From Streptomyces sp. SLBN-118 (GTDB lineage Bacteria > Actinomycetota > Actinomycetes > Streptomycetales > Streptomycetaceae), in NCBI RefSeq assembly GCF_006715635.1, contig NZ_VFNP01000002.1, positions 496,001 to 560,000 on the forward strand: 64,000 nt of DNA, written 5' to 3'. Under the pieces are notes generated by a model. That model was not told the origin of the DNA. It searched no databases and worked only from the letters and a program-made list of their open reading frames with translations. The position numbers and the translations under genes were made by a program. Position 1 is the stretch's first letter; each line of letters starts with the position of its first letter. Positions 4,617 to 23,389 of this stretch are shown in pieces.

Positions 4617-4736
4617 CGCGCACCGGCCGAACCCCGTGAGCGGCGAAATGGCCTTCGAGCCGGCGCGCGAGCTCCGGCAGGTGATGGCTGGGCACGCGCG
4701 GGTAGAGATGGTGTCCAAGTGGTAGGTGAGCTCGAC
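4609..4736 (-). pseudogene. C-terminal stub of a fatty acid desaturase
   Basis: Only the last 40 or so codons remain. Reading minus, one frame gives ELTYHL and the next gives HHLYPRVPSHHLPELA, then a stop overlapping the TetR start. Joined, they form the third histidine box (YHLxHHLYP) and end of membrane fatty-acid desaturases. One base is missing inside the box at about 4717, so even the stub is frameshifted. Upstream, homology stops near 4736 where a plus-strand kinase fragment begins. This is a deletion scar, not a functional gene. Confidence 0.75.
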
Positions 4737-6696
4737 TGCGGATCCTCAGCGGCCGGCTGGCGCAGGCCCTGGGCGAGGTCCACCGGGCGGGGCTGGTCCA
4801 CCGGGACCTCAAACCGGGCAACGTGCTGATTGCCTCGACGGGCCGCGGCTCATCGACTTCGGTATCGCGCGGGCTCCCGAGGACACGGCGCTCACCGCGA
4901 CGGGGCTGGTGGTCGGCACACCCGGCTATCTGTCACCGGAGCAGGCCGAGGGGCGCGGCGGGCAGGCGATCGGTCCAGCCAGTGATGTGTTCTCCCTCGG
5001 TTGCGTCCTGGCGTTCGCGGCGACCGGTCGGCCGCCGTTCGGTACCGGGGCGCTCGACGCCCTGCTGTACCGGGCCGTGCACGACCCTGCCGACCTCGAT
5101 GGTGTCCCGCCCGCGCTGGGCGAGGTGGTGTCGCGCTGCCTGGAGAAGGACCCGGCGCAGCGGCCCGGTGTCGAGGAACTGGTGCGGGAACTGCTTCCCG
5201 GTCACCCGGCCGGTGAACCGGCTGATGCGCCTGCCCGCGGCCTGACCCAGAACGGGCCCAACCGTGGCCCGGCGGACGGCGCTGCGAAGGCGGTCAGCGG
5301 CGCCGCCTCGTGGCTGCCGGAAGGAGTCACGAGGCTGATCGCCCGGCGCTCGGCCGCCGCACTCGCGCTGCCGGACATCGACAGCACCGAGATCTCGGCC
5401 GGCACCTCGCGAACGGAGAGCTCCCCGGGGAAAACTCCCGGGGCAGGAACGGACCTCAGGATGCCGACACCGAACCGGCATCGGAGCGCCCCGACAACGA
5501 CGACGCGGTGCCGGCGGTCACGGACGGCACCCGGACTCCCGGACGGCGCCGCTTCCTTCTGCTCACCGGTGGGGGCGCGGTGCTCGCGGCGTCGGCGGGC
5601 GCGGGCTGGTGGAGCCTGGGCAGGGACGGCGGCCCTGGCGAAAGGAAGCCCGCCGCTTCCCGGCGCCCCGCCTACACCCTCGCGGTGCACGGCGACCTCA
5701 GCGGCACCCGGCGCGAGACGGGGCAGGCTCAGGAGCGCGGACTGGGGCTGGCATGTCGCGGAGTTCAACGCCCGAGGCGACGCGCCCTTCGACGTGAAGG
5801 TGCGGGCCGTCGACGACTCCGGCGACCCGGCCGTCGCGGCACGGCTGGCCAAGCAGCTCGCGGACGACCCGTCGGTGCTCGCCGCGTACGACGCCGGCCT
5901 CCTGCCGGTGGTCGCCGTGTCCCCTGTAGCCATCAACCTCAGCGTCCAGGGCTTCCGTTCGTTCCTGCACGCACGGCTCCCCGACTCCCTGCTCCCCTTC
6001 TTCATGAGCGCCTATCTGCGCGGGACCGCGCACTCGCGCAGGATCGGTGTCGTTGTCGACCGCGCGGCCGACAATTACGGCTGGGAGCTCAGCAGCAACC
6101 TGAGCAGGGTGCTGCGGGACGAGCGACAGCCGTACCTGCCCCGGGTGGTGGGCGCGATGCGGTCCGGCTTCGGTGACGCGGTGGACGATCTGCTGGCCGC
6201 CGATGCCGACTCCATCGCCTTCGCCGGACTGCACGACCGGGCCGCCTCGCTCGCCCGGACGCTGCGGCAGCGCGAGTTCTCCGGTGCCCGCGCCTCCGGC
6301 CCGGACCTGCTCGATTCTCGTTTCCTCAACTTGGCGAAGGAGGCCGCCGACGGATGGACGATCGTCGCACCGGTCGTCGACGCGACGCTCAAGCCCGAGG
6401 CCAAGGCGTTCGCCGATGTCTACCGGAAACGCTGGAACGAGGCGCCGCCTCGGTACGCGGCGGAGGCCTATGACGTGACGGGCATGGTGCTCAAGGCCCT
6501 GGCGAACCTGCCGGCGAAGAGCCGCACCCGCAAAGAACTGCTCGCCGCCGTGCGGGCCATCAAGTACCAGGGCGTCACAAAGCCGTTCGCGTTCGACAAG
6601 ATCGGCCACATGGTCATCGACGGCACCGGGGTCTTCCTCTGGCGGGTCGAAAAGGGTCGCTTCGTGTACGGCGGCCCCGCGCCGCACACGGCCTGA
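4737..6696 (+). pseudogene. Degenerate bifunctional Ser/Thr kinase / ABC-type substrate-binding protein (copy 1)
   Basis: This is a decayed paralogue of the next gene. The kinase N-lobe (glycine loop, invariant Lys) is absent; homology starts at helix E (SGRLAQALGEVHRAG), then the catalytic loop VHRDLKPGN and, after a one-base loss near 4835, DFGIAR and GTPGYLSPEQ. After a linker the frame changes again (about 5430-5470) so that the membrane segment RRRFLLLTGGGAVLAASAG is in a third frame. An extra base near 5754 returns to the frame encoding the extracellular Leu/Ile/Val-binding-like domain (VAEFNARGD...). About 15-17 codons are missing inside that domain after DDPSVLA. The last 300 codons are open. 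Three frame changes plus loss of half the kinase make function very unlikely. Confidence 0.82.
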
Positions 6697-8899
6697 TGGA
6701 ACCGCTCCGTACGGCCGATCCGTCCCGGCTCGGCCGCTACCGGATGCTTCGGCGGCTCGGCGCCGGCGGCATGGGCGTCGTCTTCCTGGCCCGCGCGCCG
6801 GGAGGGGCGTTCGCCGCGGTCAAGGTCGTGCGGGCGGTCCACGCCGACAGCGAGGATTTCCGGGTCCGGTTCCGCCGGGAGATCGCCGTGGCACGGCAGG
6901 TGGACAGCCCCTGGGTGGTTCCGCTGCTGGACGCGGACGCCGAAACGGAGGATCCGTGGCTGGCGACCGCGTTCGTACCGGGGCCTTCCCTCTCCGAGGT
7001 GTGGCGTCGCAAGGGCCGTTGTCCTCCGCCACGGTGTGTGTCCTGGGGCTGCGGCTCGCCGAGGCGCTGGAGGCGGTCCACCGGGCGGGGCTGGTGCACC
7101 GCGATGTGAAGCCGGGCAACGTGCTGCTGGCCCCGGACGGGCCCCGGCTGATCGACTTCGGCATCGCACGGACACCAGAGGGTACGGCGCTCACGTCCAG
7201 CGGCGTGATCGTCGGCTCCCCCGGATTCCTGTCGCCCGAGCAGGCGCGGGCACGCGCCGACGAGATCGGTCCGCCCAGCGATGTCTTCTCGCTGGGCTGT
7301 CTGCTGGCCTTCGCCGCCACGGGCGTACGGCCGTTCGGCGGCGGTGCGGCCGCCGGCATGCTGCTCCGCACGGTCTACGAGGAGCCGGACCTGCCCGGGC
7401 TGCCGGAGGCGCTGGAGCCGCTCGTACGAGCGTGCCTGGACAAGCATCCGGCACGGCGGCCGACCGCCGCCCAGGTCCGCGAGACGCTGGAAGAGATCGC
7501 GCCCGACGACCGGGAGCGGTGGCTGCCCGAGCCGGTCACGGGGCTGATTGCCGACCGGTCCGCGGCCGTGCTCGGCATGGAGGCGATCGAGCCGACCCGG
7601 GTGTCCGCACCTGCCGACACGGCGTCCTCGGAAGCCGCTACGGTGACGTCGCTGGTGGATCCGGAGTCCCGCACACCCGTCGTGGGCCGCCGTGGTTTCC
7701 TGCGCATCGGTGGGGCGGCCGGAGCACTGGTGGTCGGCGGCGGAGCCTGGTGGTGGAGCACCCGTGCCGGCCGGAAGACAGGCGGCGGCGCCTCGCCCGC
7801 CTCCGCCTCACGGCCCGAACTCGTCGTGGCCTTCCAGGGTGACCTGTCCGGCACTACGAAGGACACCGGGCACGCACAGCTCAACGGCGCCCAGCTGGCC
7901 GTCGAGCGTGTCAACGCCGAGAGCAGTCGCCCGTTGCGGCTGAAGCTGCGAGCGTACGACGACGGGGGCGAGCCCGAACGGGCCCGGGACCTGGCAGGGC
8001 GACTGACGGCGGACAAGGGTGTGCTCGCCGTGCTGGGCCCCACCACCGACAGATGCTTCGTCGCCGTGGAGGACACCTACACCAAGGCTGTGATGCCGGT
8101 CCTCTCGGTTTCAGTGGGGGTCGCGCCGCAGGTCAAAGGGGCCAACACGTCCACCCTCCGCTCGCATGCGGCGCTGCGGCCAGCCGATCAGCTGCTCGCG
8201 GCCCCCTGCTACGCCTATCTCACCGGCCCCGCCCACGCGCGCAAGGTGTTCCTCGTGGACGACCGGGCCGAGGGCGACTTCGCCTGGACCTTGTGCGACG
8301 ACCTCCAACGGGTGCTGCGTCGGGAGGGGAGGGACGCGACCGTCACCAGCGTCGCTGCCGGGACGTTCGACTCCGCCGCGCTCGCAGGGAAGGTCATGGC
8401 GGATCGTGCGGACGCGGTTGTGTTCAGCGGAAGCCACGAACGTGCGGGCGCCTTCGCGTCGGCGCTGCGGAAGGCGCGGTTCACCGGGGCCCGGGTCGCG
8501 ACCCAACGGGCCTTCGGCACACGGTTCCTGAAGTCCGCGGGTGCCGGCGCCGAGGGCTGGGTGTTCGCCACCACCTTCATCGATCCGACGTCCGCGCCGA
8601 GGACCCGCTCCTTCACGGCGGCCTACCGCGCACGGTTCGGCGAGCGCCCTGGCTGGTACGCGGCGGAGGCATACGACGCCGTGCTGTTCCTGGCCGAGGT
8701 CTGTGCGAGGAAGGGCTCTGCTCTGGGGGAACGGGGCGCGATCGTGCGTCACATGTCCGAGGTCGACCACCGCGGCATCAGCCGGACGATCGAGTACACC
8801 GCGGACAAGGGCTACACCAACGACGCGCTGTTGTTCCTGTTCCGTACCGTCGGCGGAGAGTTCGACTTTCTCGGGCAGTACAAGGAAGTGGTCTCGTGA
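6696..8899 (+). pseudogene. Bifunctional Ser/Thr kinase / ABC-type substrate-binding protein (copy 2), one frameshift
   Basis: The ATG at 6696 overlaps the stop of copy 1 (TGATG). Residues 1-100 form a kinase N-lobe (LGAGGMGVVFLA, VKVVRAV). At about 7000-7003 one base appears missing (GTGTGGCG where GTGGTGGCG is expected), and the rest continues in another frame: VHRDVKPGN, DFGIART, SPEQ, a C-lobe, a linker, a membrane anchor (RRGFLRIGGAAGALVVGGG), and a periplasmic-binding fold of the branched-chain amino acid receptor type (about 350 residues). Intact homologues are single polypeptides sensing an extracellular ligand and signalling through an inside kinase domain. Here translation stops soon after the N-lobe unless the base is a sequencing error, which is quite possible because everything else is intact. 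Confidence 0.78.
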
Positions 8900-9102
8900 G
8901 CCGGGCGCGGCAGCGGGCGAATCCGAGTTCCCGGAGGCCGACGCGGAGCGCCGCCGCGGTCGTCCTGGCTCGGCCAGAGCTACCCGGGGCAGAGCACGTC
9001 CGTGACTGTGCGAACTTTCCTGCTGCGCCTTAGAGTGAATTTGAAACGGCTCTCATGCCGCTTCCACTCTCCGGCGTCCATGGCCGGGTTCACGATCGCC
9101 GC

Positions 9103-9108
9103 TATAAT
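9103..9108 (+). promoter_or_regulatory. TATAAT -10-like element in the leader of the glycosyltransferase operon
   Basis: The 287-base gap 8900-9186 has an A/T-richer stretch than its surroundings and contains a perfect TATAAT 78 bases upstream of the glycosyltransferase ATG. No good -35 (TTGACA-like) is spaced 17 bases upstream (TGGCCG is found), so the assignment rests on the hexamer only. A GGGGAG ribosome-binding site precedes the ATG at 9187. Nothing else is recognised in the gap. Confidence 0.4.
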
Positions 9109-9186
9109 CCGGGAAACGGCGCGGGCTGGGGGCCAATGGTTTTCGCAGATCACTGACGTGCTACAGCGGGCAGGGGAGCCGATTCC

Positions 9187-11802
9187 ATGACCGTTCTGTG
9201 GGGAGTATCCTTCGACGCCACTCCGATTTCCGGCCTGGTGGTGGAATTCGTGAAGGCCGCGCGAGTGTTCCGGGACCAGGGCTGTCGCGTACATCTCGAC
9301 CTCGGTTACGACATCAAGGCCGACAAGGGTCTCTTCTTCAAGCCCTACCGCGACGAAGCCGCACTGCTCCCCGACTGGGTCCGGCTCGGCCGGATCAACG
9401 GTATTGACGAGATCCCCGGCTACGACCAGTCGTTTGTTTCCACTGTCATGCGGGAGTACATCCAGGACGGAGCGGGCGAGCAACTGCTGCCCCGGATAGA
9501 TGCTGTTGCCGAGGCTCTGGGCCGGCGGATCGAGGAGCACTGGCAGCGGCTCGACGTGTCCTTCGTGATAGTCGAAAACGGCACCCTTCCGGAGAACGTC
9601 GTGTACACGAAGGCGCTCTACCGGGCCATCGAGCGCTACGGGCGCCGAAACGGGCTGGGCCGATTCGTTCTGTGGCGCGACCACGACCTCATGTGGCAGA
9701 GCGAACCGGGCATCAAGAAGTACGGTGACTTTCCCTATTCACACACCGTGGCTCCAGTGAACTCACCCCACATCCACTACGTTGTGCTGCACGACCAGGC
9801 CCGGCGCAAGACTCTTGAGTGGGTGCCGGGTCTGGAGAACATCGGTGTCCTGCCCAACAGCTTCACGCACGTACCAGCGGTCATTGACCAGCACAACGCC
9901 GATTTCCGTCGTGAGCACCAAATCCCCGAGGATGCCCTGCTCATTGCCCGTTGTACCAGGATCATTCCGCAGAAACGGATCGACCGGGACATACACCTGG
10001 TGGCCGGCCTCGCGGACCGCGCGGAGGTGTATCTCTTCGTCGCCGGCGACCCCACGGAATCACCGGGTGAGCACGCGAGGCTCATATGTCTCGCCGAGTC
10101 GCTCGGCGTCCGTGACCGGGTGGTCTTCGGTGGTTGGCTCGCGCCGCACGAGGCCCAGGTCGGATGTCCGTCCGGGCGTGGATACTCGGTACAGGACGTG
10201 CTCGCCCATGCCGACGTAGCTTCCTTCCTCACCTCGTACGACTACGAAAGCTATGGGAATCCGATCGGGGAAGCGATTGCGTCGCGCGTCCCTTACATCG
10301 CCAGTCGCTACGCACTGTATGACACGGTGTATGGCGACAAGGGTTTCCGCGCCCCCGTCCTGGAGCTCGCCACCAGCGATCTGCCCACCCCATCGTTTGT
10401 CGACAGTGTGGCCGACCTGCTGCTGGACGAGCGGAAGCGCGACGAGACGGCGGAGTTCAACTACCGGCTGGGCATGGAGCACTTCGGTGTGGCCCATGTC
10501 GGCGAGGTGCTGGCCGAGCTGCTGTTGCCCCCGATGGGCGAGCGGACACGGCTGAGCGTCGTACTACCGGTGTACAACGAGGCGGACAACCTGCCTGCTG
10601 TGCTGAGCTCGCTCCACGAACAGCGTTGTGGAGATGGCCCCCTGGACAAGTCGCTGTACGAGGTTGTGCTGGTGGACAACAACTCCACCGACGACACGGT
10701 GAGGATCGCGCGCCGATTCGCCGTCGACCACCCCGATCTCGCGATTCATGTCGTTCCCGAACCCGAGCAGGGCGTCGCCTGCGCGCGGAAGAAGGGCATG
10801 GACTTCGCGTCAGTGCGCAGCAGGAGACGCGCGCGATCCGCCGCCGAGGAGAGGTTCTACCTCGTCTCGGCCGACGCCGACTGCACAGTGGACCAGGATT
10901 GGTTGTGGGAGCTGTACACCGCGATGGAGTCCAGTAAAGCCGCCATCGGTGTCTGCAACTACTACTACGCCAAGGAGCACTTCACCCGTCGACCGAGGTT
11001 GTGGACCGCCATCCAGCGCACGCTGCGCTGCCGAGCCGAAACGTTCGGACTGTTCGGCGGTTTCCCGGACGGCAAGGGATTCGCTGTCGACAGGGATGCC
11101 TACGAGAAGGTCGGTGGTATCGAGATCTTCTACCAGCTACGGGACGGTCATTTCGTCAGCCACCTCTCCGACGACTGGGATTTTGGAATTCGAGTCTCCA
11201 GTGCGGGAGAGGAGATCACGTACGTGCCCGGCTCCCGGGTGGAAATCAATCCGCGGCGGGTCAACCACGCCATCGATGAGGTGATCACCGGCCGCGCCTA
11301 CGGATCCGACGGGATCATCGTCATGCGGGACATCCGGGTGCAGGATACGGCAGCGGACCGCGAAGGAGACCTCACTGCGGAGGAGGCTCAACAGGCATGG
11401 GAGTTCTCCATCAAGGACTTCGTGCCGAAAAACACTCTCCTACCGGTCCTGTTGACCCCCTCCCTGCTCGACGACGACGCAGTCGTGCAGTTCTTCGGAT
11501 CCGCACTCGCGAAACAACTCGGGCGGCGCATAGCGGAGATCAGGGACGAAATGCGGGTACTTGACTTCACCGCCATCCACTCCTACAAGACCCCGTCCTA
11601 CCGGTTGTACTTCGAATTCGCCGACGAGCTGTTCGCCAGACTGCGCGCCGCCGTGGGCGAGGACATCGGCTCTCCGCCACCGCTGCCGGCTTGCCTGCGA
11701 GACGTCCCGCCCGAGCGATTCCACGAGTTCGTCAAGTACTTCTGCGAGGACAGGGAATCCGGCGAGGCACACAACTACTTCGGGAATGGAGGGGTCTTCT
11801 GA
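9187..11802 (+). CDS. Fused GT4-GT2 glycosyltransferase
   Basis: The 871-residue protein carries two glycosyltransferase modules. Residues 1-430 are GT-B/GT4-like, with RIIPQKRIDR near 258 and the EX7E signature ESYGNPIGE near 353. Residues 455-750 are GT-A/GT2-like: VVLPVYNE near 457, VDNNSTDDT, and the metal-binding SADADC near 562, followed by GGFPDGKGFAVD as an acceptor-loop-like segment. About 120 unassigned residues finish the chain. No signal peptide or membrane segment is seen, so it is likely cytosolic. Five in-frame ATA codons, very rare in streptomycetes, suggest recent acquisition. Its stop overlaps the start of the radical SAM gene (TGATG), so the two are co-translated. Donor and acceptor are unknown; two sequential sugar additions are inferred. 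Confidence 0.85.
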   Translation: MTVLWGVSFDATPISGLVVEFVKAARVFRDQGCRVHLDLGYDIKADKGLFFKPYRDEAALLPDWVRLGRINGIDEIPGYDQSFVSTVMREYIQDGAGEQLLPRIDAVAEALGRRIEEHWQRLDVSFVIVENGTLPENVVYTKALYRAIERYGRRNGLGRFVLWRDHDLMWQSEPGIKKYGDFPYSHTVAPVNSPHIHYVVLHDQARRKTLEWVPGLENIGVLPNSFTHVPAVIDQHNADFRREHQIPEDALLIARCTRIIPQKRIDRDIHLVAGLADRAEVYLFVAGDPTESPGEHARLICLAESLGVRDRVVFGGWLAPHEAQVGCPSGRGYSVQDVLAHADVASFLTSYDYESYGNPIGEAIASRVPYIASRYALYDTVYGDKGFRAPVLELATSDLPTPSFVDSVADLLLDERKRDETAEFNYRLGMEHFGVAHVGEVLAELLLPPMGERTRLSVVLPVYNEADNLPAVLSSLHEQRCGDGPLDKSLYEVVLVDNNSTDDTVRIARRFAVDHPDLAIHVVPEPEQGVACARKKGMDFASVRSRRRARSAAEERFYLVSADADCTVDQDWLWELYTAMESSKAAIGVCNYYYAKEHFTRRPRLWTAIQRTLRCRAETFGLFGGFPDGKGFAVDRDAYEKVGGIEIFYQLRDGHFVSHLSDDWDFGIRVSSAGEEITYVPGSRVEINPRRVNHAIDEVITGRAYGSDGIIVMRDIRVQDTAADREGDLTAEEAQQAWEFSIKDFVPKNTLLPVLLTPSLLDDDAVVQFFGSALAKQLGRRIAEIRDEMRVLDFTAIHSYKTPSYRLYFEFADELFARLRAAVGEDIGSPPPLPACLRDVPPERFHEFVKYFCEDRESGEAHNYFGNGGVF

Positions 11803-13253
11803 TGAATCTCAGCTATGAGCAGGCGGTGGCCTCTCTGCATCAGCTTGATCCCGGATACCCGGTTCCTTCAGTACTGGCTGCGCTGGACGACCCAGCGAAC
11901 CGGCACCTGCTCGAATATGTGACCGCGGACCCGTTCGGCGCGCATGTGTTCCCCGGCGACATCACGGACTACCCGCCGTCCGAATTCCTCATCGATCTCA
12001 ACCGGCAGCTTGCCTCGACTGCCCCGATACACCTGTGGTCCTACATCCCCACCTGCGCGTACCGGTGCCGCTTCTGCCAGTACCCGGTGGTCCTGGTCAA
12101 AGGACAACCGGAAGTCACCGACAGCAAAGCAACCCAGTGGGTCGACTGGAACATCCGCGAAGCCGAAATGTGGCTGCGCGAGGTGCCAAACCTGGCGTCA
12201 GCGCCGATCGGCGAGTTCAACGTCTTCGGCGGCACACCGTCGCTGCTTCCACCGGTCGCCATCCGCCGGTTGCTCCGCTTCTACCAAGAGAACTTCAACT
12301 TCACCCCGGACACAGCCATCCGCTTCGAAGGCGATCCCAGCACGTTCACCGTCGAGAAGCTGGAGCTGCTGGCCGAGCTGGGCTGCAGCAAACTGTCCAG
12401 CGGAGTGCAGTCGTTCGACGACTCGGTGCTCGAGCAGTGCGGCCGCGAGCACACCGCACAGATGTGTGTGGACTTCATCGGCAACGCACGGCGCGTCGGC
12501 TTCGAGTGGATCAGCATCGACCTGATGTACGGACTCCTTGACCAGAGCGTCGACAGCGTCCGCAGGGACCTCGACATGGTCGTCGAGCACGATCTGACGG
12601 CGGTGGTGTGCGCCAAGCTGCATCTGAAGTCCTTCAGCGACACCAGAACCGGAGTGTCCGGGGAGAAACCTGCGGCCTGGCAACTGCCCGCCTACAGAAA
12701 CAAGCTGGTCGAAGACGGCCATCGCTGGCCGACGCTCGGCGAGCAGTACCAAATGCGTGAGATCCTCACCGAGGGTCTGACCCGCGCCGGTTTCCGTGAG
12801 CAGCCCACCATGTACTTCGCGCGCGAAGGCCTTGGCCCGGAGACGTGGAAGTCCATCATGGTCGACCAGGACAAGCAGGAAGCCGAGGTCGCAATCGGAC
12901 TGGGTGGCAGTTCCAGTTGCCGCGCATCGGAGGCGATCGCCCATGTGGACTGGAGGACGTACTCCGCAGCCGTAGAGGCCGGCCGGCTTCCGCTCGGCTC
13001 AGCGACCCGTTTCTCCGAAGATGCTCAGGAGGCCAGGTCCATCAAGATGGCGCTGTCGACTCTGCAGCCGCTGCGCGACACGTTCCATCAGCAGCGTTTC
13101 GCCGGACGATCCCTGCTGGACGAGCCGTGGCGGCACATTTTTCAGTCACTGGAGAAACGCGGCCTGACCGTCGTGGACGACTGCGCCGAACAGATCAGTA
13201 TGACGTCGGAGGGCAAAGTCCTGGTCGAGGCGATCATCAACAGCGAGTTCTGA
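11802..13253 (+). CDS. HemN/HemW-like radical SAM protein
   Basis: The 483-residue protein begins at the ATG overlapping the previous stop, with GGAGGGG 7-8 bases upstream. The radical SAM cluster motif CAYRCRFC (CX3CX2C) lies at residues 85-92 and the SAM-binding glycine motif FGGTPSLLP follows, as in the HemN family; SSGVQSFDD and a C-terminal winged-helix-like region (EGKVLVEAI) also fit. HemN relatives include coproporphyrinogen dehydrogenase, HemW heme chaperones, and methyltransferases or cyclopropanases in natural-product pathways. Pairing with a glycosyltransferase and the absence of any heme gene nearby argue for a tailoring role, but the reaction is not known. Nothing recognisable follows until the cupredoxin at 13434. 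Confidence 0.85.
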   Translation: MNLSYEQAVASLHQLDPGYPVPSVLAALDDPANRHLLEYVTADPFGAHVFPGDITDYPPSEFLIDLNRQLASTAPIHLWSYIPTCAYRCRFCQYPVVLVKGQPEVTDSKATQWVDWNIREAEMWLREVPNLASAPIGEFNVFGGTPSLLPPVAIRRLLRFYQENFNFTPDTAIRFEGDPSTFTVEKLELLAELGCSKLSSGVQSFDDSVLEQCGREHTAQMCVDFIGNARRVGFEWISIDLMYGLLDQSVDSVRRDLDMVVEHDLTAVVCAKLHLKSFSDTRTGVSGEKPAAWQLPAYRNKLVEDGHRWPTLGEQYQMREILTEGLTRAGFREQPTMYFAREGLGPETWKSIMVDQDKQEAEVAIGLGGSSSCRASEAIAHVDWRTYSAAVEAGRLPLGSATRFSEDAQEARSIKMALSTLQPLRDTFHQQRFAGRSLLDEPWRHIFQSLEKRGLTVVDDCAEQISMTSEGKVLVEAIINSEF

Positions 13254-13433
13254 CGTTCTGGCCGACGTCATCGGCATCGAGCGGCGCCCCCGTGCTCGGC
13301 ATTCAGGTGAGCCGGCGCCGCGGCTGGCGGTACCGCTCTGGCGAGCGCCACCGAGGACGGTGAATCTGGATGCGGCGACCGATCACCGGCCGCGCCCAGA
13401 CCACAGCATCCATCGTCGGAAGGTCCGCCCGGC

Positions 13434-13856
13434 ATGTCACTCACCTATCCCCACCGGGCCCACACCGCCCTCAGAGTGGGCGGAGTCTGCATCCTGCTCG
13501 CCCTGGCCGGCTGCTCGAACGGCGGCAACGGCAGCGGCAACAACACCACCACCCCAGCGACCACCACCAGCGCCGCGTCCGCCCCGAGCACCTCCAACAC
13601 TGGCGCGGCGCACCTCTCGATCAAGAACTTCGCCTTCACGCCGGCGAGTCTTCAGGTGCGGCCCGGGACGAAGGTCATCGTCGAGAACCTGGACTCGGTC
13701 ACGCACACCGTGACCGCCACCGGGGACAAGGCATTCGACACCGGCGACATCGATGCCGGCGAAACAGCCACCTTCATCGCTCCAGCCACATCCGGCAGCT
13801 TTCCCTACATCTGCACCATCCACCCGAACATGAAGGGCACCCTCACCGTGAGCTGA
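13434..13856 (+). CDS. Cupredoxin-domain lipoprotein
   Basis: The 140-residue protein has a lipoprotein signal with lipobox LAGC at about residue 25, a Ser/Thr/Ala-rich spacer, then one plastocyanin-like domain. The type-1 copper ligands are visible: His in SVTHTVTA, and the Cys, His and Met of YICTIHPNMKGTL. It should be anchored outside the membrane and act in copper binding or electron transfer. It is monocistronic, and no oxidase partner lies beside it. Confidence 0.86.
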   Translation: MSLTYPHRAHTALRVGGVCILLALAGCSNGGNGSGNNTTTPATTTSAASAPSTSNTGAAHLSIKNFAFTPASLQVRPGTKVIVENLDSVTHTVTATGDKAFDTGDIDAGETATFIAPATSGSFPYICTIHPNMKGTLTVS

Positions 13857-14032
13857 TGCCCGAGCTCGGTGCCCACGCGTCGGCTCCCAGCCGTGCCGCC
13901 CGTTCCCTCACAGCTGCGGCCACCGCAGTGGCTGACCCGGCGACCGGCCATACGTACCGCCACTCGGGTTGTCCGGTGTCCTGATGCGCTGGTCGGGATG
14001 CGATGTGGTTCCCCCCATTGGATGGTGGAGAC

Positions 14033-14314
14033 ATGAACCATCCCCACCAGTCCCAGCGGACGATCGAGATCGACACCCGGCTCGTCACGGCCGGTGCTGT
14101 GCTCACCGCGGCCGGTGCCGCGGTGGCGTGCGTCGGCATGGCCACCGTGGCCTTCGCTGTGTTCAAAGAAGGTCGGCGCATGATCCGTGACATGGATGTG
14201 CCCCCGGCCCAGCAAGCGGCCATGAAGTGGCGCCAGGCCAAGGAGGCGTCCCGAGCGGGCATGGAGGCGTGGCAGTCCGCGTCCGGCGCCCAGAACGGGG
14301 CGCTCGCCCGCTAG
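14033..14314 (+). CDS. Small single-span membrane protein of unknown function
   Basis: 93 residues from the ATG at 14033, preceded by GGTGGAG. One hydrophobic segment (about residues 20-42, VTAGAVLTAAGAAVACVGMA) is followed by a basic, amphipathic tail (KEGRRMIRDMD, QQAAMKWRQAKEA). Streptomycetes have many such one-span proteins with no assigned role; no family is claimed. Confidence 0.62.
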   Translation: MNHPHQSQRTIEIDTRLVTAGAVLTAAGAAVACVGMATVAFAVFKEGRRMIRDMDVPPAQQAAMKWRQAKEASRAGMEAWQSASGAQNGALAR

Positions 14315-14519
14315 GTCGGCCAGGCCACTCTCTCCACCGGAGCCCGTGCCGGTCCCGGTGGAACGATGCCGTGTGCCGCGACGCCGACTGCGCGCAGCAC
14401 GCTTCGCCGAGCAGATACCGGGTCTGACCAGTGCGTACGGCCCGTGGCATGCCGGGCGTGCGCCCCGGTGGCCGGCGCGTCCAGGTCGCTGTCGGTGGGT
14501 TCAGGGAACCGCCCGCCGC

Positions 14520-14559
14520 TCACATCCTGCGGATACGCATCACATCCTGCGGATACGCA
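14520..14559. repeat. Tandem 20-bp duplication at the end of the DUF6893-like gene
   Basis: TCACATCCTGCGGATACGCA occurs twice head to tail (14520-14539 and 14540-14559). The stop codon of the small minus-strand gene lies in the right-hand copy, so the left copy is an untranslated duplicate of its last codons. This looks like a recent slippage duplication. Confidence 0.9.
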
Positions 14560-14647
14560 GGTACCGCACGAGATCCGGCAGCATCTGTTTGACAGCCGCC
14601 GCAAGAACGACCGCAGCGGCCGCGCCGCCGATGATTGTCTTCTTCAT
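14540..14647 (-). CDS. DUF6893-like 35-residue membrane peptide, last gene of the hydrogenase operon
   Basis: The minus strand encodes MKKTIIGGAAAAVV and on to a basic end (YLRIRRM), 35 residues with one hydrophobic helix. GAGGAG lies 7 bases upstream of the ATG at 14647, and the gene starts 10 bases after the maturation protease stop. Peptides of this size and pattern (KK/IGG/hydrophobic/LPDxxRYLxxRxM) are the DUF6893 type; I recall them beside actinobacterial Hhy hydrogenases. Function unknown; membrane anchoring of a partner is a guess. Confidence 0.7.
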   Translation of the reverse strand: MKKTIIGGAAAAVVLAAAVKQMLPDLVRYLRIRRM

Positions 14648-14657
14648 GGTTGTCTCC

Positions 14658-15206
14658 TCACTTCGCGGTCTCGCCGACCGCAGCCGACGGCACGGGCGAT
14701 TCCTGCTCGCCGCCCCGTAGTAGACCCAGGATCAGTCGTACGGCCTCCGGCACCGCGGCAGCCACCGGTGGACTGAGGCCGATGCCTTCCTCCACGTCGG
14801 CGGGTTCGCAGCCCACGACCAGGGTGCGCCGCGGTGGATGTGCGCCGGTGCCCGCGCAGAGGGTGCCCAGGAGGGCCAGGACCGCGTCGGGGGACATCCG
14901 GTGGCCGTCCAGCAGGGCGCCCTGGGGCTCTATGTCGCCCGGGCGGTCGGCCTCGATCAGGTACACCGTGCCGGGGGCGCCGCCCCGTGTCGTGGCATCG
15001 ACCAGGACGAGCATGTCGTAGCCGTCGAGGAGCTGATACGCCAGGTGGACTCCCCGTACGCCGATGTCCACGACCTCGGCGTGCTCCGGAAGTTGCTCCA
15101 CCGAAAGTCCGCGCACCGTCTCGACGCCGAAGCCGTCGTCGCCGAGGAAGATGTTTCCGACACCGGCGACCAGGGTCCGGCCGCTGTTGCCCTCCGGGCG
15201 TTTCAT
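14658..15206 (-). CDS. [NiFe]-hydrogenase maturation endopeptidase (HyaD/HybD family)
   Basis: 182 residues from the ATG at 15206. The family start GVGNIFLGDDGFGVE contains the Ni-probing acidic residue of GNxxxxDDG; HLAYQLLDGYDMLVLVDA and the conserved His segment (GHRMSPDAVL) follow. The enzyme removes the C-terminal tail of the hydrogenase large subunit after nickel insertion, and the large subunit in this operon has such a tail after DPCLPCGVH. The start overlaps the upstream stop by 4 bases (ATGA), so it is translationally coupled. Confidence 0.92.
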   Translation of the reverse strand: MKRPEGNSGRTLVAGVGNIFLGDDGFGVETVRGLSVEQLPEHAEVVDIGVRGVHLAYQLLDGYDMLVLVDATTRGGAPGTVYLIEADRPGDIEPQGALLDGHRMSPDAVLALLGTLCAGTGAHPPRRTLVVGCEPADVEEGIGLSPPVAAAVPEAVRLILGLLRGGEQESPVPSAAVGETAK

Positions 15207-16627
15207 CCGTCCTCCAGGGGGACGACCTCGTCGGGCTGGAAGTACAGGAAGCGGCCCTGCTCGCGGCGGATGTCGGCTCCCGGATCGCCTTCGACGGTCA
15301 CCGCAAGGTGCACTGCCCCGTCCACGTCGTGCAGCACCGCCTCGACCCTGGCGCTGCGGCCGTTCAGGAACAGGTCCTGTGCGTCGGTGCGCCGCAGACC
15401 CGGGCGCAGTTGTACGCGGCTCCCGGCGCCGAGCGAGTGGCCGTCGACGAGGGCGCGGTCGTGTGCCGGGTCGAAGCCGGAGTCGCTTGCCGGGTCCCAC
15501 CAGGGCGTGTCCGGCCGCTGCACCCCGTCCGGCACGTCCGGCGTGGCTGGGGCGGCTGGTGCGGCTGGGGCGGTCACCTCGCGCAGCGAACGCACCGCGC
15601 CGTGCAGGCGCTCGAGGACCTCGGGGGGCATCGAGTCGGCCAGGTCGATCACTGCGGCGGCCCGTTCGTCGGTGCCACGGGCCTCGCGCTTCTCCTCGTC
15701 GGTGAGGGCGGCGGTGCGCAGCGCGAGGATCTCGTCGATCTCGGTGGCGTCGTAGAGGGTCCCTGGACTCTCCGGTGCGATGGCCGGGTGGTCCTCCAGG
15801 ATGATGGGAGAGGACAGCACCAGGTCCGCGCGGCCGGGTTCCCCGGCGAGGACAGGCCAGGTGTGCAGGTTGCGGCAGTTGGCGACTGCGCCCTTGGCCC
15901 ACTCGGGCGGATCCGTCATCGACAGGAACGATCCGGCGCTGAGGCCCATCAGGAGGTGCGCGGCCACCAGCGAGCGCGCCAGTGCCGCGTCACGGTCGCC
16001 CGAGCCGTCGGGCGGGCTCCAGGAGCTGGTGTTCTCCACGACAGCGGTCAGGCACATCACCCGGTAGGGCCCTTCGAGTTCACGCGCTGTCAGCCGCACG
16101 ACGCCGCTGATCTCCTCGCACCGGCGAATCAGCCGGCCGACCGTCCGCCCGGCCGCGTCCAGGACGGGCTCGGTCTGCTCGCGGGCGGGGCGGGTGAAGG
16201 GGACGGTGACGCCGTCTCCTGTCAGCCTTTCCACAGGTTCGAGCACTTCGACACGCTCTTCGACGCCCTCGTCCCAGGGCACCAGGACGCGGTCCTCCAG
16301 GGGGAGTTCGGGCACCGTCTCGAACCCACCGTCCTGCCGGACCTGTTGCACGGTCCGGCGCTGGGCGTGCAGGAAGCGCACCTCGACCGCGAGGCGTGCG
16401 CCCGCCTTCGGTTCCATCAGGCATTCGGTGTGCTGGAAGTCGTGCTCCTCGCATTCGGCGGCCCAGGCCGGTGGCACGAGCACCCCGAACTGCCAGCGCA
16501 ACCGGTTCTTGGCGGCCGAGGCACGGTACGGGTAGAGCACATAGCCCTCAAAGAGCACCGCGTCCGCCACCTGCCGGGCAACGGCGAGCCGGGCTTCCGT
16601 ATCCGGTGAAAAGGCGGTTGTCGTCAC
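15203..16627 (-). CDS. Conserved hydrogenase-operon protein of unknown function (474 residues)
   Basis: A GTG at 16627 with GGAGGG 8 bases upstream gives 474 residues; it overlaps the upstream stop by 4 bases. The sequence is soluble-looking with a segment rich in aromatic and basic residues near the start (FEGYVLYPYRASAAKNRLRWQFG) and Cys-containing ECEEHDFQHTECL at about 60-75. Further on come SSPIILEDHPAIAPESPG, ALTDEEKREARGTDERAA and a C-terminal beta-rich part. I recognise no enzyme motif. Position inside the operon and tight coupling on both sides imply a role in hydrogenase assembly or partner binding. Confidence 0.8.
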   Translation of the reverse strand: MTTTAFSPDTEARLAVARQVADAVLFEGYVLYPYRASAAKNRLRWQFGVLVPPAWAAECEEHDFQHTECLMEPKAGARLAVEVRFLHAQRRTVQQVRQDGGFETVPELPLEDRVLVPWDEGVEERVEVLEPVERLTGDGVTVPFTRPAREQTEPVLDAAGRTVGRLIRRCEEISGVVRLTARELEGPYRVMCLTAVVENTSSWSPPDGSGDRDAALARSLVAAHLLMGLSAGSFLSMTDPPEWAKGAVANCRNLHTWPVLAGEPGRADLVLSSPIILEDHPAIAPESPGTLYDATEIDEILALRTAALTDEEKREARGTDERAAAVIDLADSMPPEVLERLHGAVRSLREVTAPAAPAAPATPDVPDGVQRPDTPWWDPASDSGFDPAHDRALVDGHSLGAGSRVQLRPGLRRTDAQDLFLNGRSARVEAVLHDVDGAVHLAVTVEGDPGADIRREQGRFLYFQPDEVVPLEDG

Positions 16628-17322
16628 CGTGCCGTCCCTCCGGTCGCGTGGGGCAGCAGCGTCCGGTCCGGGTTGTGGCCCGGCGGGGGCTCCGGCCTGT
16701 CGGCCTCGGCCAGCAGGGCGCGGACGGCCGCCTCCCAGGAGGGCAGCGCCCGCTGTGACCGGAAGGCGAGCAGTGCGTCCACGGTGTCGCGCGGCAGCCG
16801 GATCCAGCCGCAGCCGGGGAAGTGCTGCTCGACCATCTCCCGCCACACCTCGACCGGCATGCGGAAGGTCGCTTCCCGGTCCCACGGCACAGGCTCGACG
16901 CGGAAGCCGCCGGCTCCCGTGAAGGCCGTTCCGGAGAACAGCATGAGCAGCGGCACCTCGCCCGCTTCCAGGGCGTTGAAGTACCGGCCGGCGGCGACGT
17001 CCATGTCGTAGGTGCAGGGGACGACGAGGTCGGTCTCCGTCTCCCCCGTGAAGCCGGGAACCATGTGCGAGACCTGGGCGAACTGAACCGGCTGGAGCGT
17101 GCTGCCCCAGCGCGAGCGCTCACCGAAGAGGACGTTCAGCGCATCGGCCTCCGCGGGCTCGTAGCCGCGCCGCGCGGGCTCGATGCGGATCTGGCAGCGC
17201 AGGGCCAGGGCGTGCACACGGGCGTTGTCGGACGGGGTGATGCGCAGCCTGAAGACGAGCGTCGGACCGGCCGCGTACGGGTCGGCCCGTACGCCGGTAC
17301 ACGTGAAGGCGAGCTCGGTCAT
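16624..17322 (-). CDS. DUF6084-like hydrogenase-associated protein
   Basis: 232 residues from the ATG at 17322, overlapping the upstream stop by 4 bases. It begins MTELAFTCTGVRADPYAAGP and is mostly beta-rich, with ALRCQIRIEPARRGY and DLVVPCTYDMDVAAGRYF; the end is helical. This pattern fits the DUF6084 family that I associate with Hhy-type hydrogenase loci. No catalytic residues can be named. It is probably an assembly or stability factor for the hydrogenase. Confidence 0.7.
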   Translation of the reverse strand: MTELAFTCTGVRADPYAAGPTLVFRLRITPSDNARVHALALRCQIRIEPARRGYEPAEADALNVLFGERSRWGSTLQPVQFAQVSHMVPGFTGETETDLVVPCTYDMDVAAGRYFNALEAGEVPLLMLFSGTAFTGAGGFRVEPVPWDREATFRMPVEVWREMVEQHFPGCGWIRLPRDTVDALLAFRSQRALPSWEAAVRALLAEADRPEPPPGHNPDRTLLPHATGGTAR

Positions 17323-20468: not shown

Positions 20469-21557
20469 TCACCACGGCCGCCGGTAACCGGTGGTCAGCT
20501 TCTCCCCCGTGTGGCGCCACTTCGGCTCCTTGTCCACCGTCCTGGCCGTGATGGACCGCAGCCTGCGGATCACGGTGCCGTACACTCCGCTGGCGCCGCT
20601 CGAGACCCTCGCGCCGGGCGGTTCGTCCATGAACGGCATGAACTTGTCCGGGAATCCCGGCATCGTGCAGGCGATGCAGATGCCGCCGACGTTCGGGCAG
20701 CCCCCGATCCCGTTCATCCAGCCCCGCTTGGGCACGTTGCACTTGACGACGGGTCCCCAGCAGCCGATCTTGACGAGGCACTTGGGTGAGTCGTACGTCT
20801 CGGCGAACTGGCCCTGTTCGTAGTAGCCGGCGCGATCGCAGCCCTCGTGCACGGTGGCACCGAAGAGCCAGGTCGGCCGGAGCTTGTCGTCCAGCGGGAT
20901 CATCGGAGCGGCACCCGCCGCCTGGTAGAGCAGGTAGGTCAGGGTCTCGGAGAAGTTGTCGGGCTGGATCGGGCAGCCGGGCACACACACGATCGGAATG
21001 CCGGCCTTGGACTTCCAGTCCCAGCCCAGATAGTCGGGCACTCCCATCGCGCCGGTCGGGTTGCCCTCCATGGCGTGGATGCCGCCGTAGGTGGCACACG
21101 TTCCGATCGCGACGACAGCCAGCGCCTTGGGCGCGAGCCGGTCGATCCACTCGCTGGTGGTGATCGGCTGGCCGGTTTCGGGGTTGTCGCCGAAGCCGCA
21201 CCAGTAGCCTTCCGGCTTGATCGACTCGTTGGGGACCGACCCTTCGATCACCAGGACGAACGGGTCGATCTCGCCGCGCTCGCCTTTGAAGAACCATTCG
21301 ATGAACGTGTCCGCTCCCCCGACCGGACCGCACTCGAAGTCGATCAGGGGCCAGTGGACAGCGATCTTGGGCAGGCCCGGCAGCGCGCCCGTGACGATCT
21401 CCTCGATACTCGGCTGCATGGCCGCCGTCAGGGCCACCGAGTCGCCGTCGCAGCTCAGCCCGGCATTGATCCAGAGGATATGGATGGGGCCGGCTTCGTC
21501 GGCGGGTCCTGCGGCGGCGTCCGCGTCCTGGGCCGCGGTCGGCGTGGCTGCATTCAT
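20469..21557 (-). CDS. hhyS: [NiFe]-hydrogenase small subunit, Hhy type
   Basis: 362 residues from the ATG at 21557, with GAGGGGG upstream and a 1-base overlap with the hypX stop. No Tat signal peptide is present, which fits the cytoplasm-facing Hhy enzymes. The proximal cluster motif reads GLSCDGDSVAL, where the Asp two residues after Cys is the position reported as an unusual Asp ligand in Hhy-type enzymes. Further cluster-binding Cys lie in GTCATYGG, VPGCPIQP, EGCDRAGYY, KCLVKIGCWGPVVKCN, GGCPNVGGICIACTMPGFPD. It passes electrons from the Ni-Fe site to an unknown acceptor; no cytochrome b or Rieske gene is in the window. Confidence 0.93.
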   Translation of the reverse strand: MNAATPTAAQDADAAAGPADEAGPIHILWINAGLSCDGDSVALTAAMQPSIEEIVTGALPGLPKIAVHWPLIDFECGPVGGADTFIEWFFKGERGEIDPFVLVIEGSVPNESIKPEGYWCGFGDNPETGQPITTSEWIDRLAPKALAVVAIGTCATYGGIHAMEGNPTGAMGVPDYLGWDWKSKAGIPIVCVPGCPIQPDNFSETLTYLLYQAAGAAPMIPLDDKLRPTWLFGATVHEGCDRAGYYEQGQFAETYDSPKCLVKIGCWGPVVKCNVPKRGWMNGIGGCPNVGGICIACTMPGFPDKFMPFMDEPPGARVSSGASGVYGTVIRRLRSITARTVDKEPKWRHTGEKLTTGYRRPW

Positions 21558-23389
21558 CAGGGTGCCCCCTCGGGGAGGTATGGCGTGACAGTCGGCATGT
21601 GGTACCCGCCTTCTTCGTAACAGGCATCCGGTGCCGGGGCCTTGTTTTCGGGGGCCGGTCCAGTGACACGGGGCTCGGAGAGCCGGTCCGTCACACGCGC
21701 TCCCGGCACCGCGACGCTCAGATGCGGCGGCGTTCGCAGCGGCTTCTCCTTGCGTACGAATGCGTGTCGCAGCGCGTGGTAGGGGGCGGACGGGTCGGAG
21801 AAGGTCCGGCGCATGAGGGCCAGTTCCTCCTCCCGGAAGGCTGCGAGCGGCCTCAGACTCTCCTGGTGGTCCCGTTCGGCTTTCTTCGCGGCGATCCGTT
21901 GCTGCAGGGAGGGCAGGGAAGCGAGGTGTCCGGCGAGCCGGGCTGCCTCTGCCGTGAACGCCTGTGGGGTGCACTCGACCAGGCGGTCGACGAGGCCCAG
22001 CCGCTGCGCTGCCGTCCCGCTGACGGGCAGTGCCTGGCGCATGAGGCGCTCGGCGACTGCCGGACCGACCCGGCGCGGCAGGGTGTACGTCCAGAACTCG
22101 GAGCCGTACAGCCCCATCAGCCGGTAGTGCGGGTTCAGCACGGTGCCCGATCTGCACCACACCTCGTCCGCGGCCAGGGCGAGCATCACCCCGCCCGCAG
22201 CGGCGTACCCGCCGACGGCGGCGACCACCAGCCGGTCGGTGGTCCTCAGCACGGCCTCGACCAGATCGTCGATCGCGTTGATGTTCGCCCAGGATTCCGC
22301 ACCGGGATCGTCGGCGGCCTCGATCACATTGAGGTGGATGCCGTTGGAGAAGACCTGGCCGCCGCCGAGGACCAGCACCGACGTGGGGCGCGAGCAGGCC
22401 TCGTGATAGGCCGCCAGCAGGCGCCGGCACTGCGTCGTACTCATGGCGCCGCCGGGGAAGGAGAAGGAAAGGAAGCCGACGGTGCTCTCCTCGCGGTAGC
22501 TGATGTCGCTCCAGGCACGCCACTGACCGTCCGGACGCGACGGCGCAGGGCTCTCCGGCAAGGAGGGCAGCCGGCCGCCGAGCGCGGTGACGGCAGGGAG
22601 TTTGAAGGTGGGGGGCTGCCCCGGCCCGCGCCGGGCCCGCAATTCGGGAATCCACACGGCGCCGTCCGTCGTCGCCCGGCAGACGGCTCCGGCCCGGGTC
22701 GCCAGAAGGTCGCCGGGGTGCCCTCGCAGCTCGTATTCGCGGTGGCCACCGTGCATGTACCACTCGCTGCCCAGCAGTTCGTCCAGTACGCCGGGCTGCG
22801 AGTCCGCGGCCCGCAGCTTGCGGACGATCGTCTCGGTGGACTCCGAAGCCCAGTCGATCTGCCGGACGCTCTGATCGAGATACGGCCGGGTTCTTCCCCC
22901 ACCGCCTTCGGTCTGCGGCTGCGGTGAATACGTCCCGGTCGCGAAACGCTCCACCGCCAGCATCACCGCGGCAGCCGCCGCGTCGGACACCTCGCCGCGG
23001 TACAGCTCGCTCTTGGCCACCCGGGGCACCGGGCAGGCGACCGAGGCCCAGACGTCGCCCGCGTCCATCTCCGCGTCGGCCTGCAGGACCGTCACGCCCC
23101 ACTCGCCGACGTCCTCGTGAATCGCCCAGTCGAGGGACGAGGGCCCGCGGTCTCCGACGGGCCCGGGATGGACGACGAGACATGTGTATGCGGACCACAC
23201 CTCGCGCGGGATCGGCGTCTTCAGCATCGGCGCGACGACGAGCTGCGGTTCATGGCGGCGTACGGCGTCCGCCAAGGACTCACCGTGCACCGCGAGTTCC
23301 ACCGCCACGCTGTGACCGTGATCCCTGAGCTCGGCATGGAGGCGCTGCGTGAGGCTGTTGAACGCGGTGGCGACAAGCAGAATGCGCAA
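21557..23389 (-). CDS. hypX: HypX-type hydrogenase maturation protein (CO ligand synthesis)
   Basis: About 610 residues from a TTG at 23389, chosen because GGGAGG is 7 bases upstream and the formyltransferase fold starts immediately (LRILLVATAFNSLTQRL). Residues 1-270 form a formyl-transferase-like domain (VVHPGPVGDRGPSSLDWAI, the HPG substrate loop). Residues 330-540 form an enoyl-CoA-hydratase-like domain (SNGIHLNVIE, AAGGVMLALAADEVW). HypX makes the active-site CO ligand from formyl-tetrahydrofolate by way of formyl-CoA in aerobic hydrogenase producers. It is the first gene of the operon and its stop overlaps the small-subunit start. Other hyp genes are not here. Confidence 0.9.
   Translation of the reverse strand: MRILLVATAFNSLTQRLHAELRDHGHSVAVELAVHGESLADAVRRHEPQLVVAPMLKTPIPREVWSAYTCLVVHPGPVGDRGPSSLDWAIHEDVGEWGVTVLQADAEMDAGDVWASVACPVPRVAKSELYRGEVSDAAAAAVMLAVERFATGTYSPQPQTEGGGGRTRPYLDQSVRQIDWASESTETIVRKLRAADSQPGVLDELLGSEWYMHGGHREYELRGHPGDLLATRAGAVCRATTDGAVWIPELRARRGPGQPPTFKLPAVTALGGRLPSLPESPAPSRPDGQWRAWSDISYREESTVGFLSFSFPGGAMSTTQCRRLLAAYHEACSRPTSVLVLGGGQVFSNGIHLNVIEAADDPGAESWANINAIDDLVEAVLRTTDRLVVAAVGGYAAAGGVMLALAADEVWCRSGTVLNPHYRLMGLYGSEFWTYTLPRRVGPAVAERLMRQALPVSGTAAQRLGLVDRLVECTPQAFTAEAARLAGHLASLPSLQQRIAAKKAERDHQESLRPLAAFREEELALMRRTFSDPSAPYHALRHAFVRKEKPLRTPPHLSVAVPGARVTDRLSEPRVTGPAPENKAPAPDACYEEGGYHMPTVTPYLPEGAP

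Follow-up and report, generated by a model that had tools for sequence, protein, structure and literature searches.

What is made by a two-gene locus that encodes two glycosyltransferases and a radical S-adenosylmethionine (SAM) enzyme? The question is raised by positions 9187-13253 of a 64,000-nucleotide stretch of Streptomyces sp. SLBN-118 DNA (contig NZ_VFNP01000002.1, positions 496,001 to 560,000, forward strand; hereafter, the window), in which a gene for a fused GT4-GT2 glycosyltransferase (GT) is directly followed by a gene for a HemN-fold radical SAM protein. The GT-radical SAM pair is a real conserved unit, beyond chance: two phyla retain the GT4 part, the GT2 part with its C-terminal domain and tail, and the HemN-fold radical SAM protein as one group, and none of the NCBIfam and Pfam models used assigns the unit. 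The explanation that we tentatively prefer, and to which we give slightly under an even chance, is that the two genes serve as a compact biosynthetic cassette, spread by horizontal transfer, whose product is a single conserved small metabolite bearing sugar.

The preliminary description of the locus, made from the sequence, had claimed a single polypeptide with two glycosyltransferase folds, coupled by a TGATG junction to a radical SAM protein with intact CX3CX2C and GGTPS motifs, and all of this holds. Specifically, the GT gene has an ATG start and encodes both families in one reading frame above their Pfam gathering scores (PF00534, GT family 1, residues 239-386, 37.0 bits versus 26.4; PF00535, GT family 2, residues 457-639, 84.4 bits versus 23.3), the Radical_SAM family matches the second protein at 78.4 bits versus 29.5, the GT stop TGA (11800-11802) overlaps the radical SAM ATG at 11802 by one base, and the cluster motif is joined by FGGTPS at residues 142-147. 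Two further features, absent from that description, are a C-terminal domain and a nearly invariant 19-residue tail of the GT. The features, all on the forward strand, are the following:

9187-11802, +, GT4-GT2 fusion protein of 871 residues (Pfam, relatives)
9187-10521, +, GT4 (GT-B fold) part, residues 1-445 (PF00534; structural matches cover model residues 1-450; a gene of its own in several proteobacteria)
10522-11376, +, GT2 (GT-A) part, residues 446-730 (Pfam; DADC at 563-566 and SDDWDFG at 661-667 invariant in 44 sequences)
11377-11742, +, C-terminal, mostly helical domain, residues 731-852 (structure model; no Pfam match)
11743-11799, +, C-terminal tail CEDRESGEAHNYFGNGGVF, residues 853-871 (most conserved 19-residue stretch of the GT; low-confidence prediction)
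11800-11804, +, TGATG junction, one base common to the GT stop and the radical SAM start (kept in 59 of 65 relatives)
11802-13253, +, HemN-fold radical SAM gene, 483 residues (Pfam, NCBIfam scores, fold match)
12054-12077, +, CX3CX2C cluster motif CAYRCRFC, radical SAM residues 85-92 (motif)
12228-12242, +, GGTPS motif, radical SAM residues 143-147 (motif)

The pair as a conserved unit

A scan of species genomes with the radical SAM alignment returns 66 loci, 65 of which are kept as close relatives; L068, a distant protein of the HemN type that has no GT and only 28% identity over residues 76-251, is removed. The GT2 part and its C-terminal domain directly precede the radical SAM gene in all 65, and since pair and order recur in every close relative, 59 of them with the same one-base overlap, the association is more than chance. 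As to whether fusion and overlap are conserved, which the preliminary description had raised as a check, the overlap is largely kept, the exceptions being a radical SAM start 0 or 1 base past the GT stop (L017, L019, L065, L047, L049) or a radical SAM gene that lacks the usual start codon (L010); GT4 and GT2 form a single reading frame in 61 of 65 loci (the frame is split in L010, L058 and L059, and a GT4 match is lacking in L062), but the fusion is not essential, as the two are separate genes in several proteobacteria. Co-occurrence, the other check proposed, extends to the family of a Lentzea genome (G972), where the radical SAM gene is found in 25 of 200 genomes and the GT in the same 25, always adjacent (GT threshold, E 1e-50; one of the 25 matches GT residues 486-871 only), although this set partly overlaps the 65 loci and the two counts are not independent. 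Moreover, the pairwise distances of GT2 and radical SAM proteins are correlated (r 0.905 over 64 sequences; 0.862 without Kosakonia).

The distribution of the unit is patchy. It is carried by 4 of 295 genomes of the genus, including the window's own genome and one divergent relative, by 6 of 394 genomes of the class, own genome included, and, in an Enterobacterales-wide search, by 1 of 295 genomes, namely the centre genome of that search. Both genes have a guanine-cytosine (GC) content of 62.9%, versus 69.0% in the window; among related loci, the GC content of the pair is lower than that of the flanks in 55 of 63 and averages 2.0 points less, so that the difference seen here is larger than at most loci. 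The preliminary description had read acquisition from five ATA codons in the GT gene, which are there, with one more in the radical SAM gene; judged by the low GC content and the presence in only 4 of 295 genomes of the genus, acquisition of the pair is probable.

Most loci examined hold no third gene in the unit. Specifically, in the comparison of neighbour families, no third gene family recurs beside the pair in most loci, nor does any family of three or more genera, and no peptidase gene recurs in the unit among the neighbours examined. A related gene of the major facilitator superfamily (MFS) lies directly upstream on the opposite strand in 8 of 63 actinomycete loci (L004-L009, L018 and L060).

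The flanks of L020, a record titled Rhodococcus rhodnii NRRL B-16535, group with those of Kibdelosporangium and Actinosynnema, and its genome (G677, 12.4 Mb) fell in the family of the Lentzea centre genome, so the record name looks wrong. Two different GT copies, each on a contig of equal length, are listed for Amycolatopsis vastitatis (P0181, P0185), and thus some strains may hold two units. In the window itself, the pair lies directly downstream of two tandem genes (4726-6696 and 6956-8899, +), in each of which a Ser/Thr kinase domain is fused with a domain for ligand binding (Peripla_BP_6) in a receptor-kinase-like architecture; a small cupredoxin-like protein (13434-13856, +), outside the families common to several genera beside the pair, is encoded 180 bases past the radical SAM gene, and a reading frame with NiFe hydrogenase small-subunit domains occupies 20472-23198 (-).

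Proteobacterial relatives and plasmids

A search of 72,556 plasmid records returns 394 with some radical SAM match, and among the best 15 of these, ten stand apart, with 98-100% of the protein covered at 45-49% identity, the next row being at 25%. They come from Sinorhizobium garamanticum, Pseudochrobactrum, Duffyella gerundensis (three), Paraburkholderia (three), Rhizobium jaguaris, and Cupriavidus taiwanensis; several are legume-symbiosis plasmids, and six of the ten are predicted to be conjugative. Searches of the same plasmid records with the other parts of the GT converge on the same ten: the tail is found in exactly those records, the GT4 part of Paraburkholderia phymatum in those only, and the C-terminal domain with the tail in those plus one match at E 6. 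In a protein search with the P. phymatum radical SAM sequence, the best 120 of 1718 matches also include relatives in Azotobacter, Pseudomonas, Pectobacterium, Serratia, Cedecea, Asaia, Kosakonia, Lonsdalea, Arsenophonus, Pantoea, and Xenorhabdus, the neighbourhood having been read for Kosakonia alone.

A single fused gene encodes GT4 and GT2 in P. phymatum, P. sabiae, and S. garamanticum, and each has its own gene in Kosakonia, C. taiwanensis, R. jaguaris, and the only Duffyella region that was read; the P. phenoliruptrix record has an annotated break inside GT4, and the GT2 and radical SAM frames are broken in Pseudochrobactrum. Upstream of the P. phymatum unit are nodS, nodU, and cysC, with a resistance-nodulation-division (RND) efflux set in between, and in P. 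sabiae nodU, cysC, and this efflux set occupy the equivalent position. Both Kosakonia loci and Duffyella have an MFS gene and two paralogous proteins adjoining the unit, with no Pfam match in the three of the four paralogues that were scanned. A hemerythrin-domain gene follows the radical SAM gene in two Paraburkholderia (L078, 15977-16537; L101, 10978-11538).

Some sugar genes occur near the unit, namely treR-treB-treC directly upstream in Duffyella (L082, 6902-11182), ThuA, Gfo/Idh, and sugar ATP-binding cassette genes upstream in Pseudochrobactrum (L083, 5315-11282), and treS downstream in P. sabiae, at a distance of about 5 kb (L102, 18575-20638). A trehalose link was considered and is kept as a lead only, as trehalose genes are absent from the other proteobacterial neighbourhoods read.

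The radical SAM protein

The structure model of the radical SAM protein (mean predicted local distance difference test, pLDDT, 90.8) matches HemN (PDB 1olt) over its full length (Foldseek E 2.6e-27, TM 0.80 by target), with no other match nearly as good, and this fold together with the CX3CX2C motif places the protein in the HemN-like fold group. Only C85, C89, and C92 are conserved at 95% or more in 42 sequences; there is thus no sign of auxiliary clusters, and the extra conserved cysteines of SPASM/twitch maturases are lacking. The best NCBIfam matches are all far below their cut-offs: HutW/ChuW (TIGR04107, 103.7 bits versus 400), the STM4012 family (NF006067, 100.9 versus 380), HemN (TIGR00538, 98.1 versus 324.95), and HemW (TIGR00539, 89.4 versus 205.4). 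The preliminary description had allowed that the protein might group with ordinary HemW and that the adjacency might prove not to be conserved; as its scores indicate, the protein is not HemW, a separate HemW being encoded elsewhere in the genome (locus L002, 231.5 bits), and the adjacency is conserved. Two segments, residues 41-52 (DPFGAHVFPG) and 282-294 (RTGV...WQ), combine high conservation with low model confidence and are likely substrate or partner loops.

A small glycosylated metabolite as the proposed product

The GT4 part, in a GT model of mean pLDDT 84.5 (predicted template modelling score, pTM, 0.66), has structural matches to HepE, BshA, MshA, sucrose-phosphate synthase, trehalose transferase (TreT), and SenB, and also to GT4 enzymes acting on lipid and lipopolysaccharide; of these, BshA, MshA, sucrose-phosphate synthase, SenB, and TreT use soluble acceptors, in line with the preferred explanation. 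The GT2 part matches PcManGT and RmlT among others; a second structure search listed GT4 matches only and barely covered GT2 and the C-terminal domain. On the preferred explanation, the GT4 part would move a sugar from a nucleotide sugar onto a small soluble acceptor of primary metabolism, the GT2 part would add a second sugar or conjugate the product, and the radical SAM protein would then make a radical change, either a methylation of the class C type or a HemN-like oxidative change. The nearly invariant tail of GT2 may dock into the radical SAM protein, in which case coupled translation would yield a working GT-radical SAM complex. In some lineages the adjacent MFS protein would export the product, and in rhizobia the unit would work inside nodules. 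Soil actinomycetes and plant-associated bacteria would probably make the same small sugar-decorated molecule by means of the unit. In favour of this explanation stand the conserved adjacency and overlap, the co-occurrence in 25 of 200 family genomes, the correlated distances, the convergence of the plasmid searches on ten records, the full-length HemN match with its three conserved cysteines, and the MFS genes found beside some loci.

A divergent relative of the same genus (L072) supports a common chemistry of the radical SAM protein and GT4 on a small molecule. Its radical SAM protein has 43% identity. In its cluster (8000-16700), a profile of this GT4 matches two proteins, at 54 and 46 bits, for which Pfam gives no match; the cluster also has genes for two oxygenases of the TauD type (one is near GntD and VioC but below the cut-off of both) and for a Gfo/Idh oxidoreductase, and one gene of no known family. 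Neither GT2 nor the tail occurs within 20 kb. The label "APH-like", given at first to one gene of this cluster, was dropped, as it has no Pfam or NCBIfam match.

Expression in root nodules is in keeping with a role there. Table 1 of PMC8305402 gives log2 decreases in nifA-mutant nodules of P. phymatum of 4.07 for the radical SAM gene Bphy_7706 and 4.98 for the GT gene Bphy_7707, and the same source gives 5.92 for the downstream Bphy_7704, which is a hemerythrin-domain gene by the domain scan made here versus an AraC regulator by its name in the table; in an rpoN mutant of the same species, the GT gene is down 3.6 (PMC5979394). In the accessible parts of both papers, the unit genes appear in tables and one list. 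A decrease in non-fixing nodules can have other causes for such genes. In eight proteobacterial loci, the sequence upstream of the GT holds no NifA site, and sigma-54 sites with one mismatch are limited to S. garamanticum (-177) and R. jaguaris (-474), the background being 32 such sites in 438,580 bases.

Several points weigh against the cassette explanation. The docking of the tail is a proposal, as is the glycosylation followed by radical methylation or C-C bond formation that the preliminary description had suggested, and the order from GT4 through GT2 to the radical step is one that we infer. A profile of the radical SAM protein scores HemN and NocN alike (110.8 and 107.8 bits), so that methylation and decarboxylation are not told apart. 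Most actinomycete loci have no MFS gene adjoining the pair. No sigma-54 promoter is found upstream of the GT in P. phymatum, so the dependence on NifA may be indirect. Lastly, one finding that speaks for the explanation has its limits. Of the radical SAM positions with 95% conservation or more among the 42 remaining aligned proteins, the tail-less L072 differs at 10 of 16 in the low-confidence loops 38-55 and 276-299 and at 20 of 124 outside them (Fisher p 1.7e-4), but the loop bounds were chosen after viewing the confidence profile and a single tail-less sequence is compared.

If the cassette explanation holds, the pathway is near-minimal, with two genes, or with a third in lineages whose GT4 stands alone, patchily spread over two phyla. 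Plasmid location, NifA dependence in one rhizobium, and patchiness point to a bacterial metabolite common to both phyla, of which no description was found in the literature searched.

The C-terminal tail as a possible substrate or lid

The last 19 residues of the GT form its most conserved window. Across 127 rows (120 listed matches out of 251, and seven proteobacterial sequences), their conservation is 0.981, whereas GT2 averages 0.789, and all 127 end in NGGVF; in the seven proteobacterial rows, the identity of the tail to the window sequence is 0.932. This element offers a direct handle on the choice between a docking element and a built-in substrate. A glycyl-radical loop was also considered and rejected, as the tail has only R-x-S-G in common with what we take to be the pattern of that motif.

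In an unlikely alternative, the tail is the substrate of the radical SAM protein, a ribosomal peptide with its core at or near the C-terminal GVF that is carried on its own glycosyltransferase. The radical SAM protein would alter the tail, for instance by oxidative decarboxylation of the C-terminal Phe, the GTs would glycosylate it, and a host peptidase would free it; oxidative decarboxylation by HemN is common in kind with the chemistry of mycofactocin MftC. The conservation of the tail and its invariant end argue for this possibility, as do its low pLDDT (63, 55, and 38 over residues 851-871), the co-occurrence of tail and radical SAM gene in 10 of 10 plasmid records, and the finding that the 600-base flanks hold no discrete precursor open reading frame common to several genera (12 largest clusters). 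Conversely, other conserved loops of the GT are also predicted with low confidence (residues 171-180, pLDDT 64; 651-660, pLDDT 55), so that low confidence alone is no mark of a substrate; the radical SAM protein lacks SPASM-type cysteines, the unit has no recurring peptidase gene, and L072, in which a related radical SAM protein is accompanied by GT4 relatives in the absence of GT2 and tail, counts against the tail as a general substrate. Were the substrate reading true, actinomycetes and associates of nodules, plants, and insects would make one conserved molecule, a ribosomal natural product or cofactor with a glycosyltransferase tail as its precursor.

Equally improbable is a reading in which the tail serves GT2 as a flexible lid over its active site, the radical SAM protein having a free small molecule as its substrate and making no contact with the GT. 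Active-site loops of glycosyltransferases commonly combine conservation with low confidence, and the further loops of this kind in the GT favour a lid; however, a lid leaves unexplained both the strict coupling and why, in the sets examined, GT2 is not found without the radical SAM gene (25 of 25 family genomes, 10 of 10 plasmid records).

Envelope or heme functions as improbable alternatives

That the pair modifies a cell-envelope polysaccharide or lipid is considerably less probable still. Envelope synthesis often involves GT4 and GT2 families, and RmlT is among the GT2 matches, but no gene family of at least three genera recurs beside the pair in most loci, and we know of no HemN-fold radical SAM enzyme in envelope synthesis. 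The nodule data also lend the envelope some support, as many envelope genes of P. phymatum are RpoN-dependent too, as far as the accessible text goes (PMC5979394). A heme-related function, with the radical SAM protein as a variant of HemN, HemW, or HutW and the GT beside it by chance, has the fold and the best NCBIfam matches in its favour and is very improbable, as all four scores fall far below cut-off, HemW is encoded elsewhere in the genome, and the conserved adjacency already refutes chance neighbours.

Comparison with known systems

The preliminary description had recognized no standard pathway in the pair, and this stands: in addition to being unassigned by the model libraries, the GT-radical SAM unit is described in no paper found in the literature searched, most subscription journals lying outside its scope, and the same literature yields no gene cluster of trehazolin or allosamidin for comparison.

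The radical SAM protein resembles HemN in its full-length fold and CX3CX2C motif and differs from it by its low family score and by always occurring with this GT in the close relatives examined. With the class C methylases NocN/NosN (PDB 9p2u) it has in common the match of its profile to NocN (107.8 bits) and the lack of conserved auxiliary-cluster cysteines, whereas thiopeptide genes are not among the recurring neighbours of the unit; methyl transfer would be a possibility here. BshA and MshA, the GT4s of bacillithiol and mycothiol, are unlike this GT4 in sequence (12-18% identity) and in context, since two GTs and a radical SAM protein stand here in place of a thiol pathway.

Mycofactocin offers a parallel to a tail that would serve as substrate. 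In the accessible text of PMC7491314, its core is a C-terminal Val-Tyr after Gly, oxidatively decarboxylated and cyclised by MftC, MftF glycosylates it, and an unidentified host peptidase can replace MftE. The combination of a radical SAM protein, a GT, and a conserved C-terminal Gly-Val-aromatic end is thus common to both systems, as far as that source describes them, and the analogy extends to the core, to MftC and MftF, and to the host peptidase (PMC7491314). Unlike mycofactocin, the end here is Phe and lies on the GT itself, the radical SAM protein is HemN-fold and has no SPASM cysteines, and GT2 scores 27.9 bits with MftF, below the cut-off of 280. No mycofactocin radical SAM protein over cut-off is found in the own genome, but none is found in 14 control genomes either.

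Lastly, if the tail were indeed a substrate, the unit would resemble borosin-type fused precursors, which we take to be enzymes with their own conserved C-terminal peptide, and would presumably differ from them in that the modifying enzyme is a separate protein, the radical SAM partner.

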